A stretch of 32,658 nucleotides of DNA from a virus. A program made the position numbers and the translations under genes. The notes beneath the pieces are model-generated. The model was not told where the DNA came from. It saw nothing but the letters and a program-made list of their open reading frames with translations, and ran no database searches. Shown one piece after another: positions 14,315 through 17,108 of this stretch (position 1 is the stretch's first letter; each line of letters starts with the position of its first letter). The stretch spans positions 1 to 32,658 of the IMG/VR virus record IMGVR_UViG_3300009285_001064. One strand, 5' to 3'.

Positions 14315-14664
14315 CTCACTACGAAATGTGTCGCGTGTTTAAGAGTCTATATGAGGAGAAGTTCGGCGGGTTCTACTGCATCACCCCCGTGGATGCGAAG
14401 ATGGCGCATGAGTTCTGGGTATTAAACGGTGAGCTTGTAGAGGAACAAATCAGGCCGTATGTGATGAACTTCTTTGCTGATGAATTTGAAGGTTGGAGTC
14501 AACGTCGCTGGCCTGCCTGGCTGTTCTTCAAGCACTTCAATTCGTTCGCTCCGAGAATCGAGAAGCCGGCGGCGAAGGTCGGCCAGCATACACACGAGTT
14601 GGTGATCCACTGCACCCGTTGCAACAGAAACCACAGAGCAGACGGAGACTGTGAAACACCTTGA
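14296..14664 (+). CDS. Hypothetical protein with C-terminal CCHC-like tail
   Basis: The product is 122 aa. GTG 14296 is preferred because GGAGG lies five bases upstream; an in-frame GTG at 14284 would place that site inside the gene. The body is aromatic-rich (KFGGFYCITPVD, FFADEFEGWSQRRWPAWLFFKHF), a layout seen in small phage proteins of unknown role. The end, CTRCNRNHRADGDC, has C-x2-C-x3-H-x5-C spacing close to a zinc knuckle and is encoded by the repeated module also present at 15417 and 16198. It overlaps the cytosine methyltransferase start by 14 bases. Confidence 0.5.
   Translation: MPKSRIAHYEMCRVFKSLYEEKFGGFYCITPVDAKMAHEFWVLNGELVEEQIRPYVMNFFADEFEGWSQRRWPAWLFFKHFNSFAPRIEKPAAKVGQHTHELVIHCTRCNRNHRADGDCETP
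14615..14659 (+). repeat. RNHRAD junction repeat, copy A
   Basis: About 42 bases, core CCACAGAGCAGACGGAGA, matching copy C (16198-16240) with about four mismatches. It codes CNRNHRADGDC at the end of the 122-aa protein and contains the GTG start of the next gene. Confidence 0.8.
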
Positions 14665-15460
14665 TCTTTTTTCCGGCATTGGTGGTTTCGCCCTTGCATG
14701 CTCTTGGGTGTGGGGCGAAGAATATGAAAACGTAGGACACTCGGAGGTTGAGCTGTATGCGTGTAAAGTTTATCACAGACATTTTCCAGAATCGGAGTGC
14801 TTGGGTGACATCACGAAAATCAACTGGGCAGAAGGGCAGGCTGATCTCATCACCGGGGGATTCCCATGCCAGCCCCATAGTCTTGCAGGAAAACGTAGAG
14901 CAAGTGCAGATGAGCGGGATTTGTGGGGGGAGTGTGTTAGAGCCATACGCACAGTACGACCCAGATACGCACTCCTTGAGAACGTTCCAGATCTGCTTAG
15001 TTCTGAACGAGGGGGATTCTTTAACAGGGCCCTTAGTGACCTGGCAGCGGCAGGGTATGATGCGTGGTGGGAAGTTGTTTCGGCGTGCGCCGTTGGTGCG
15101 CCACACACACGGGAGCGGGTGTGGATTGTTGCCCACCCCAACGAAGTCAGATGGGACTTCACCGCTCAAGCAAACTTTACGGAAGGAAGAAACCTGGGAA
15201 ACAATATCCAGCCTTACAGGAAAAATTGTTGCCATGCAGCTTGGGTTGACTGGGAAACAGAATCTATCTCCAAAGAATTGGGTGGTGAACCCCTTATTGA
15301 TCGAAAGAATGATGGGCTACAGGGATGGGTGGACAGAGACGCAGGGCTTGGAAACGCAATCGTCCCCCAAGTGGCATTTGTAATTCTCGACGCAATCCGC
15401 AGGGCAGATGCCATGACCCGCTCGAACCGTAACCACAGAGCAGATGAGGAATGCAAATGA
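14651..15460 (+). CDS. DNA cytosine-5 methyltransferase
   Basis: The product is 269 aa from GTG 14651. All main motifs are present: I DLFSGIGGF (5-13), IV GFPCQPHS with catalytic Cys73, VI LENVP (109-113), VIII GAPHTRERVWIVA (149-161) and X GLGNAIVPQV (232-241). The variable target-recognition part between VIII and X is only about 70 residues, so the enzyme is short, probably with a simple target. It probably protects phage DNA from restriction. Its last residues, SNRNHRADEEC, come from the repeated junction module. A second long frame (14757-15383) overlaps most of the gene. Confidence 0.9.
   Translation: MKHLDLFSGIGGFALACSWVWGEEYENVGHSEVELYACKVYHRHFPESECLGDITKINWAEGQADLITGGFPCQPHSLAGKRRASADERDLWGECVRAIRTVRPRYALLENVPDLLSSERGGFFNRALSDLAAAGYDAWWEVVSACAVGAPHTRERVWIVAHPNEVRWDFTAQANFTEGRNLGNNIQPYRKNCCHAAWVDWETESISKELGGEPLIDRKNDGLQGWVDRDAGLGNAIVPQVAFVILDAIRRADAMTRSNRNHRADEECK
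14757..15383 (+). CDS. Overlapping frame inside the cytosine methyltransferase gene
   Basis: The frame is +1 relative to the methyltransferase, open for 208 codons from ATG 14757, with GGAGG nine bases upstream. The predicted protein has YAQYDPDTHSLRTFQ, a GMMRGGKLFRRAPLVRHTHG stretch, GSGCGLLPTPTKSD and MGYRDGWT followed by LETQSSPK. From memory these match a common phage-encoded family with W-K/R-T-S-Q, G-S-G-x-L-P-T-P-T and MGxPxGWT motifs, often annotated as or near DNA methyltransferases. Each motif lies opposite a methyltransferase motif (VI, VIII, X). It may be a real overprinted gene, or a family created by reading methyltransferase genes in the wrong frame. Confidence 0.45.
   Translation: MRVKFITDIFQNRSAWVTSRKSTGQKGRLISSPGDSHASPIVLQENVEQVQMSGICGGSVLEPYAQYDPDTHSLRTFQICLVLNEGDSLTGPLVTWQRQGMMRGGKLFRRAPLVRHTHGSGCGLLPTPTKSDGTSPLKQTLRKEETWETISSLTGKIVAMQLGLTGKQNLSPKNWVVNPLLIERMMGYRDGWTETQGLETQSSPKWHL
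15417..15459 (+). repeat. RNHRAD junction repeat, copy B
   Basis: The most diverged copy. AACCGTAACCACAGAGCAGA is shared with copy C, but the Cys codons are lost (it codes SNRNHRADEEC). It forms the end of the cytosine methyltransferase and holds the start of the next methyltransferase. Confidence 0.75.
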
Positions 15461-16197
15461 TCGAGGATATGCTCGGCAAAATCTACTGCGAGGATTGTCT
15501 TGAGACCATGAGCCGGATGGAGGACAAGTCCATTGATCTGATTGTAACAAGCCCACCCTACAACATGGGGGGAAAGTCCTTGGGTTGTCATCCAAGATCA
15601 ACCATTGGGGACAGATTTTATTCTGCGTATTCCGACAACCTATCATCTGATGAATACGTGGATTTCTGCCGGAGGGTGATTATGGAATCGCTTAGGGTGT
15701 CACGGTATGTCTTCTGGAACGTTCAGTGGACGGAAACAACGCGATATGCGGTTCACGACATCCATAAGACGTTCAGCGAGAACATGAAAGACATATTCGT
15801 TTGGCACAAGCAGGCTGTTGCGCAAATCGCTCGCGGTCGAACCGCGAGCGGACACGAGTTTGTATTTATGCTCGGAGAGAATGGGAACCGGAACTTCGCC
15901 TACCACAACTTCCCTGACAATGGATATGTCCCAAATATCCAAACGTGGTACAAGAAGGAGTCGTTCCGGGAGCACCACGCAACATTCCCCGTGGAGTTGC
16001 CACTGTACTTTGTCGAATACTTCACAAAGCCTAATGATATTGTCTATGACCCGTTCTTAGGGTCTGGGACTACCGCAGTGGCTTGTGAACGATTGCACCG
16101 CGAATGGATAGGGTCAGAGATAGACCCAGCATACGTCACGCTTGCCGAGAAGCGAATTGCCGCCGAACGCGCACAGATGAAGATGGTGTTCAAGTGA
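15457..16197 (+). CDS. DNA amino-methyltransferase (TSPPY type)
   Basis: The product is 246 aa. ATG 15457 overlaps the upstream stop and has GAGGA at a fitting distance; ATG 15451 is too close to it. Catalytic motif TSPPYN (31-36) is near the start and SAM-binding DPFLGSGTT (198-206) near the end, again beta-type order. TSPPY occurs in N4-cytosine and some N6-adenine enzymes, so the base is undecided. Compact size and no nuclease partner suggest an orphan protective enzyme. It is the third methyltransferase within 5 kb. Confidence 0.85.
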   Translation: MIEDMLGKIYCEDCLETMSRMEDKSIDLIVTSPPYNMGGKSLGCHPRSTIGDRFYSAYSDNLSSDEYVDFCRRVIMESLRVSRYVFWNVQWTETTRYAVHDIHKTFSENMKDIFVWHKQAVAQIARGRTASGHEFVFMLGENGNRNFAYHNFPDNGYVPNIQTWYKKESFREHHATFPVELPLYFVEYFTKPNDIVYDPFLGSGTTAVACERLHREWIGSEIDPAYVTLAEKRIAAERAQMKMVFK

Positions 16198-16265
16198 TCC
16201 GTTGCAACCGTAACCACAGAGCAGACGGAGATTGTGACACACTAACAACAGGAGAAACACAATGA
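16194..16265 (+). CDS. 23-residue mini frame carrying the RNHRAD module
   Basis: GTG 16194 overlaps the methyltransferase stop (GTGA) and the TGA overlaps the next ATG, exactly like real genes here. It encodes MIRCNRNHRADGDCDTL plus six residues. It may be a relic left by the repeat at 16198-16240, a translation-coupling linker, or a free zinc-knuckle-like peptide. Too short to decide. Confidence 0.3.
   Translation: MIRCNRNHRADGDCDTLTTGETQ
16198..16240 (+). repeat. RNHRAD junction repeat, copy C
   Basis: TCCGTTGCAACCGTAACC continuing into CACAGAGCAGACGGAG. Closest to copy A. It is the only full copy not attached to a larger protein. A fragment, CCACAGAGCAGAC, recurs at 16542-16554 ahead of the coiled-coil gene. 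Confidence 0.8.
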
Positions 16266-16528
16266 TACAACTCGGATCGTATGTGCGTGATAAAATCACG
16301 GGGATAGAGGGCTATGCAATGGGGAGGACCGAATACCTCACTGGGTGCGCCCACGTAGGCATCCAGCGACCCGGTCTGTCGAAGGACGACAAGACGTTTG
16401 AGTGGGAGTGGGTGGATGAAACCCGGGTGGATCTCGTCAAAAGCAAGAAGCCGTTGCGGCTGAATGCTCCAGCCCAACAACGATCTGATCGAGCGGGTGG
16501 ACCAGCACCTAACGCGCCGCAACTGTAA
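16262..16528 (+). CDS. Conserved small phage protein (LGSYVRDKITGIEG family)
   Basis: The product is 88 aa from an ATG preceded by CAGGAGAAACACA. The N-terminal 60 residues (LGSYVRDKITGIEGYAMGR, YLTGCAHVGIQRPGL, FEWEWVDETRVDLV) match a small beta-rich family I have seen in many phages and some bacteria, of unknown function, SH3-like in appearance. The Pro/Ala-rich tail looks unstructured and overlaps an alternative upstream start of the next gene. Confidence 0.6.
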   Translation: MIQLGSYVRDKITGIEGYAMGRTEYLTGCAHVGIQRPGLSKDDKTFEWEWVDETRVDLVKSKKPLRLNAPAQQRSDRAGGPAPNAPQL

Positions 16529-16574
16529 CGGGCTCAGTCTGCCACAGAGCAGACCAACAATGCGAGGACAAGCC

Positions 16575-17108
16575 ATGAGTGATATACTAGACATGGAAGA
16601 ATTGCGGAACGACCCCATTCGATTGCGGGGGGTCATTTCGCAATTGTCATTTGATGCAAAGCTTGAACGGGGCCTCCGGGCCAACGCCGAAGAAGAGGTC
16701 AACCGTCTCGCCACCGAGAACGCCACCCTCACCCGCGAGAGGGATGAACTGAAGAAACGGCTTGAGGCTGCTGACGGAGTAGACAGATGGATGAATGAGG
16801 TTGTGCATCTGGCTGCCGAGGTGGAGGCCCTCTGTGAGGAAATCGAACGCCTGGACAAAACTATTAAAGCTCTCACAGACGAGAGGGATGAACTGAAACG
16901 CAGGTTGGACGAGGCAGAGAATCGAGCCATGCACGCCGAGGCCGCGCTGGACGATGAACGCGAAGCGCACCAACATTGCGCCATCACGCTTACCAGCGAG
17001 AGGGATGAACTGAAGGAGGAAATCGAACGCCTGAACAAGACCGTCGAAGCCCTCACGAACGACAACGCCAGGCTTCTGCTCCAGATCAATCAGATGGGGG
17101 AAGGGTGA
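16575..17108 (+). CDS. Coiled-coil protein
   Basis: The product is 177 aa from ATG 16575, which has the cassette GAGGACAAGCC; an upstream in-frame ATG at 16464 overlaps the preceding gene and reads through a broken junction repeat, so I prefer 16575. Nearly the whole protein is heptad-patterned coiled coil. ERDELK occurs three times, EEIERL twice and a K-T-[I/V]-[K/E]-A-L-T unit twice, pointing to internal duplication. Probably a homo-oligomeric structural or scaffold protein; function unknown. Confidence 0.55.
   Translation: MSDILDMEELRNDPIRLRGVISQLSFDAKLERGLRANAEEEVNRLATENATLTRERDELKKRLEAADGVDRWMNEVVHLAAEVEALCEEIERLDKTIKALTDERDELKRRLDEAENRAMHAEAALDDEREAHQHCAITLTSERDELKEEIERLNKTVEALTNDNARLLLQINQMGEG

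Follow-up and report, generated by a model that had tools for sequence, protein, structure and literature searches.

Results

Organization of the methyltransferase locus

The window analysed here, i.e., a 32,658-base IMG/VR virus record taken as a whole, contains an intact open reading frame for a C5 cytosine methyltransferase (alpha), inside which a second frame (beta), shifted by +1, is also open (Table 1). Alpha matches PF00145 in Pfam (2.6e-44 over residues 1-174) as well as phrog_363, and its profile matches in the PDB cover only residues 12-181 of M.HhaI; it meets the C5 methyltransferase criteria for motifs I, IV (PCQ), VI (ENV), VIII, and X, while the motif IX criterion is unmet. The +1 frame is open from 14736 to a stop codon at 15381-15383 and has two candidate start codons, TTG at 14748 and ATG at 14757; the GGAGGT at 14743-14748 lies eight bases ahead of the latter. 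A sequence-only reading of this DNA had pointed to a 208-codon +1 frame with its own GGAGG and ATG, had matched its motifs to a phage family often listed near or as DNA methyltransferases, and had noted that its motifs are out-of-frame readings of methyltransferase motifs. All three observations hold: the ORF matches phrog_1008, which carries the name 'DNA methyltransferase', at 3.6e-18 (profile positions 19-158 of 329), and LLENVPD, GAPHTRERVW, and GLGNAIVPQ are read, by exact frame-shift, as SLRTFQI, HTHGSGCGLL, and GLETQSSPK, respectively.

Table 1. Features of the double-coded methyltransferase locus (window coordinates)
Feature	Position	Strand	Description or basis
Alpha ORF, C5 cytosine methyltransferase	14651..15460	+	GTG start, 269 aa; motifs I-VIII and X, without motif IX
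Alpha motif I (DLFSGIGG)	14663..14686	+	Sequence; columns invariant in alignment of relatives
Shine-Dalgarno-like GGAGGT for beta	14743..14748	+	Sequence; 6-nt match
Beta ORF (+1 frame), 208 aa, phrog_1008	14757..15383	+	Overprinted N-terminal part, putative target-recognition region, motif IX
Alpha motif IV (GGFPCQPHS, catalytic Cys)	14855..14881	+	Sequence and alignment of relatives
Alpha motif VI (ENVP)	14978..14989	+	Sequence and alignment of relatives
Alpha motif VIII region (HTRERVWIVA)	15104..15133	+	Sequence and alignment of relatives
Putative target-recognition region; alpha frame filler-like, beta frame constrained	15143..15295	+	Codon-position divergence, 25 pairs
Beta motif IX-like segment (NPLLIERMMGYRDGWT)	15288..15335	+	Same as the motif IX that single-chain relatives have in frame; hhalign
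Alpha motif X (LGNAIVPQ), conserved	15347..15370	+	Sequence; alpha-type codon-position signature
Next gene, N4/N6 DNA methylase	15451..16197	+	PF01555, 8.6e-36

The +1 ORF had no match in Pfam or NCBIfam, the beta profile had none among PDB sequences, and searching viral contigs with the +1 ORF as a single protein returned nothing, so that an alignment was needed as query to recover relatives. AlphaFold models of beta alone were poor (pLDDT 62, pTM 0.3) and a Foldseek search with the beta model gave no PDB match; these structure predictions are too poor to be used and were excluded from the evidence. An inserted HNH endonuclease of the ShiLan type was considered and rejected, as the +1 ORF has no HNH match in Pfam, NCBIfam, or PHROGs.

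The N4/N6 DNA methylase gene that follows probably belongs to the same modification cassette as alpha and beta. A 44-nt repeat (CCGTTGCAACMGWAACCACAGAGCAGACGGAGAYTGTGA) is present at 14616-14659, 15418-15461, and 16199-16242, with a 24-nt part of it at 16542-16565; it marks successive gene boundaries around both methyltransferase genes and could be a cassette-exchange boundary or a shared initiation element. The ORF at 16464-17108 contains repeated coiled-coil-like segments (CGAGAGGGATGAACTGAAG) at 16724-17062.

Selection on the +1 frame

Relatives were collected through beta (80 viral and 80 genome loci) and, without selection for beta, through alpha alone (80 viral loci); as null model, synonymous codons were shuffled within each alpha gene, which keeps the protein and its codon usage. 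In the window gene alone, the longest +1 run is 215 codons against 105 expected (p=0.003), and in similarity to eight relatives the +1 protein scores z 2.5-6.5 above the mean of the shuffles, with seven of the eight comparisons beating all 200 shuffles. The 75 usable genes of the alpha-selected set have a mean longest +1 run of 226 codons (101 expected), as opposed to a +2 run of 51 codons (55 expected), and in 73 of 74 alpha-selected relatives the +1 translation, scored against a five-sequence beta profile, beats all 100 synonymous shuffles.

The sequence-only reading had proposed comparing +1 openness in homologues with a codon-preserving null model, and had named stops at the chance rate as an outcome that would refute an overprinted gene. 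Among 179 non-redundant alphas, +1 stops number 330 observed versus 317 expected over residues 1-60, 53 versus 829 over residues 61-230, and 224 versus 144 from residue 231 on, while +2 stops over residues 61-230 number 2041 versus 1951; the refuting outcome thus fails to materialize over residues 61-230. This set mixes beta-selected and alpha-selected loci, all with the intact alpha frame that was required, and the alpha-selected set alone leads to the same conclusion. E. coli dcm and six HhaI-like phage enzymes, used as controls, show no +1 excess (p 0.11-0.95); an excess is present in the beta-bearing genes of an E. coli prophage, an Acinetobacter plasmid, and Paenibacillus phage BN12 (p 0.01 or less). 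On the strength of these sequence comparisons, the +1 frame is a real overprinted gene, with both frames under selection.

Distribution of constraint between the two frames

Since the first codon position of alpha coincides with the third of beta, divergence by codon position indicates which frame is constrained. In 25 close pairs of relatives whose target regions could be aligned, alpha positions 1/2/3 diverged by 0.117/0.052/0.320 over residues 1-60, 0.189/0.089/0.227 over residues 101-164, 0.372/0.155/0.112 in the target region between motifs VIII and IX, 0.180/0.058/0.070 in the motif IX segment, and 0.122/0.088/0.399 in motif X. This pattern identifies alpha as the sole coding frame at both ends of the gene, both frames as coding in its middle, and the +1 frame as the constrained one in the target-recognition region; a role of beta in target recognition is inferred from position, variability, and constraint. 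Between motifs VIII and X, the alpha frame has the look of filler in which stops are avoided: across the beta target region, only 15 alpha stops were found, versus 297 expected under a beta-preserving shuffle. Fourteen of these 15 stops fall in five loci (L020, L048, L051, L058, and L117). In four of them (L020, L048, L058, and L117), translations place motif X in the beta frame, and alpha therefore need not continue; L051 is cut by a contig end and is not among the four.

Motif IX and arrangement of the conserved motifs

Single-chain relatives (L165, L112, L114, L138, and L121) carry the beta segment LNPxWVEWLMGFPxGWT in their alpha frame, between motifs VIII and X. A motif IX profile detected nothing significant in the alpha frames of six overlapping types (including the window, L001, L002, L047, and L095). 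Two classical enzymes match this profile weakly, at LSPRECARLMGYPD and LTERECLRLMGFPD, and in hhalign comparisons of beta with classical C5 methyltransferases only the motif IX-like segment aligns (E 0.024, low probability); the weak statistics of both matches are in keeping with a length of only 17 residues.

Motifs IX and X are distributed in three arrangements. In arrangement A (the window and most phage and proteobacterial loci), alpha has motifs I-VIII and X, and beta has the target region and motif IX. In arrangement B (Streptomyces and relatives), alpha has motifs I-VIII and IX-X and beta the target region only; the beta stop is often created exactly at motif IX, and the beta coding signature is retained (0.308/0.193/0.202, 19 pairs). 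In arrangement C (L048, L058, L117, and L020), alpha has motifs I-VIII and beta the target region together with motifs IX and X; by eye, mycobacteriophage VohminGhazi also falls here. In the latter phage (L249, 1233-2232), gene 88 is annotated from 1921, but the open beta frame reaches well back into gene 89; the start given for gene 88 is probably too late.

Several further loci were recorded. Streptococcus phage P0095 (L259) has a C5 methyltransferase at 301-1164, with motifs IX and X in frame, and a nested +1 ORF at 452-871 (phrog_16143, 139 aa, +1 run p=0.000) that has a TRD-like SLSDILEEQVEDKYFLS segment at its end and only a weak phrog_1008 match; it may be an independent, or a very distant, instance of this design. 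The E. coli PT62 prophage (L250, 1042-2028) has a second, divergent methyltransferase, which also has a 307-codon +1 frame (121 expected, p=0.000). Single indels swap the frames in L003, L007 (Mycobacterium phage Seabastian), L162, L087, L063, and L223, fusing the alpha N-terminus to the beta C-terminus or the reverse; in Seabastian and relatives (Llama and others) the swapped locus is annotated as two methylase genes. These indels may represent natural inactivation, sequencing error, or functional fusion.

Internal starts and annotation of beta

An internal start whose Shine-Dalgarno match spans at least 4 nt is present in 134 of 178 genes (69 expected), and one with at least 5 nt in 65 (21 expected); these starts cluster at alpha residues 51-65 and 84-87. 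A single conserved beta start codon was sought among the relatives, and none is common to all. Both nested coding sequences are annotated in the deposited record of Paenibacillus phage BN12, gp63 of which matches phrog_1008 at 1.6e-74, whereas in the E. coli prophage and Acinetobacter plasmid records alpha alone is annotated.

Discussion

A probable two-subunit enzyme encoded in overlapping frames

We consider it highly probable, from sequence alone, that the locus encodes an overprinted two-subunit C5 cytosine methyltransferase, i.e., an alpha/beta heterodimer with beta made from its own internal start. Alpha would bind SAM and perform catalysis through motifs I-VIII and would supply motif X at its end; between motifs VIII and X, the sole demand on its frame would be to stay open. 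Beta, initiated internally in the +1 frame, would begin with an N-terminal extension over alpha motifs IV-VIII and continue with the target-recognition region and then motif IX, and alpha and beta would assemble into one active enzyme. Translation of beta, formation of the heterodimer, target recognition by beta, and protection of phage DNA from restriction are all inferred, without peptide, ribosome-profiling, or enzyme data. That beta is a subunit of the same enzyme is an addition of the present analysis and was not part of the sequence-only reading.

Of the two outcomes which that reading had left standing, a true overprinted partner and a database-wide false family read in the wrong frame, the former is supported by the codon-preserving null, the sharp boundaries, the codon-position divergence, and the enriched internal start signals. 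A false family, with a +1 frame that is open and similar merely through conservation of the methyltransferase protein, can draw on the facts that some beta motifs are partly forced by alpha (GMMxxG from GYDAEW) and that all relatives examined lie within methyltransferase genes. No beta relative outside a methyltransferase gene was found among those examined, which is as expected for a nested subunit as well, and the synonymous-shuffle nulls, the sharp boundaries, the wobble pattern of the +1 frame, and the lack of excess in classical enzymes leave this explanation with virtually no credence; a database artefact was likewise considered and rejected. Programmed frameshifting, by which the ribosome would make a single polypeptide by leaving alpha for the +1 frame past motif VIII and, in the arrangement of the window, returning before motif X, would account for the change in coding signature from alpha to +1 and back to alpha along the gene, and one shift would complete the enzyme in L048, L058, L117, and L020. 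We nevertheless regard it as improbable: the +1 frame is stop-free and constrained from about residue 61, i.e., 100 codons ahead of the switch, the alpha frame is kept open across a region that the ribosome would skip, and the enrichment of internal starts with Shine-Dalgarno matches, together with a beta frame open from that same residue, favours an independent subunit.

It is very improbable, in our assessment, that beta is an independent protein (e.g., a regulator or anti-restriction factor) that merely shares the DNA and is no subunit. The N-terminal part of beta has no known homologue outside phrog_1008 and is retained in actinobacteria, where beta stops before motif IX, both of which would suit such a protein; the target-recognition region, however, is absent from the constrained alpha sequence and present in beta, and beta holds motif IX, or IX and X, in two of the three arrangements. 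The remaining alternative accepts the family as real and takes the window copy as a decaying or non-functional member. In window beta, the nearly invariant P of motif IX is an R (MGYR instead of MGFP) and the target region is short, and the copy could thus be weakened, but both frames are intact, the Shine-Dalgarno sequence is strong, and the similarity of the +1 protein to relatives reaches the upper z value given above (6.5); we consider decay unlikely without dismissing it.

Implications

Beyond the window, it appears likely, although with less assurance than for the heterodimer itself, that a large group of C5 methyltransferases from phages and bacteria keeps the target-recognition region on a subunit of its own, overprinted in the +1 frame, that what looks like the recognition region of the annotated methyltransferase is filler, that motifs IX and X move between frames in the three arrangements, and that specificity is set in trans by a usually unannotated protein. 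If this is true, the overlapping-gene arrangement is in common use by the C5 methyltransferases of phages and prophages. The same double-coded gene is present in many phages and bacteria, for which annotation usually gives one protein only. Where only alpha is annotated, as in the E. coli prophage and the Acinetobacter plasmid, a recoded clone of the annotated gene alone may be inactive, and a specificity prediction based on the annotated TRD would, if our reading is true, rest on meaningless sequence. With approximately 170 codons in double use, these genes also represent a rich natural case of overprinting, in which constraint can be measured in both frames.

Comparison with known systems

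M.EcoHK31I and M.EaeI are YGGCCR C5 methyltransferases that form alpha/beta heterodimers, and Lee, Kam and Shaw reportedly described in 1995 that the M.EcoHK31I small subunit is encoded within the large-subunit gene in another frame. We know of this overlapping-gene arrangement only from M.EcoHK31I and its isoschizomer; our literature search, which did not include the 1995 paper, found no paper on the overprint. As is said of M.EcoHK31I, window beta is nested in another frame, and it is under protein selection. New here are how widespread the overprint is, the placement of the target-recognition region in beta, and the three arrangements of motifs IX and X.

In M.EcoHK31I, two polypeptides share the motifs, with I-VIII and X in the large subunit and IX in the small one (PMC3404938); window alpha and beta resemble it in this motif layout. 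Its predicted TRD has been assigned to the large subunit (PMC3404938); by contrast, the constrained target-recognition region here lies in beta, and more than 150 loci, from phages, prophages, plasmids, and bacteria, show the arrangement. M.AquI is a split C5 methyltransferase whose small polypeptide has the distal target region and motifs IX-X (PMC3404938). The arrangement C loci L048, L058, L117, and L020 and VohminGhazi resemble it and represent an overlapping form of M.AquI; the window differs in that motif X stays in alpha, so that the criterion of a small subunit with IX and X is unmet, and in that beta overlaps alpha motifs IV-VIII in the +1 frame. The window +1 ORF belongs by profile to phrog_1008, a family whose name hides its out-of-frame position relative to the catalytic methyltransferase. 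Finally, the ShiLan domain is a hidden HNH endonuclease ORF that lies out of frame in a methylase gene of a cluster F1 mycobacteriophage (PMC11855218); beta is likewise an out-of-frame ORF inside a methylase gene, but while ShiLan is an inserted homing element, window beta overprints the conserved methyltransferase core.
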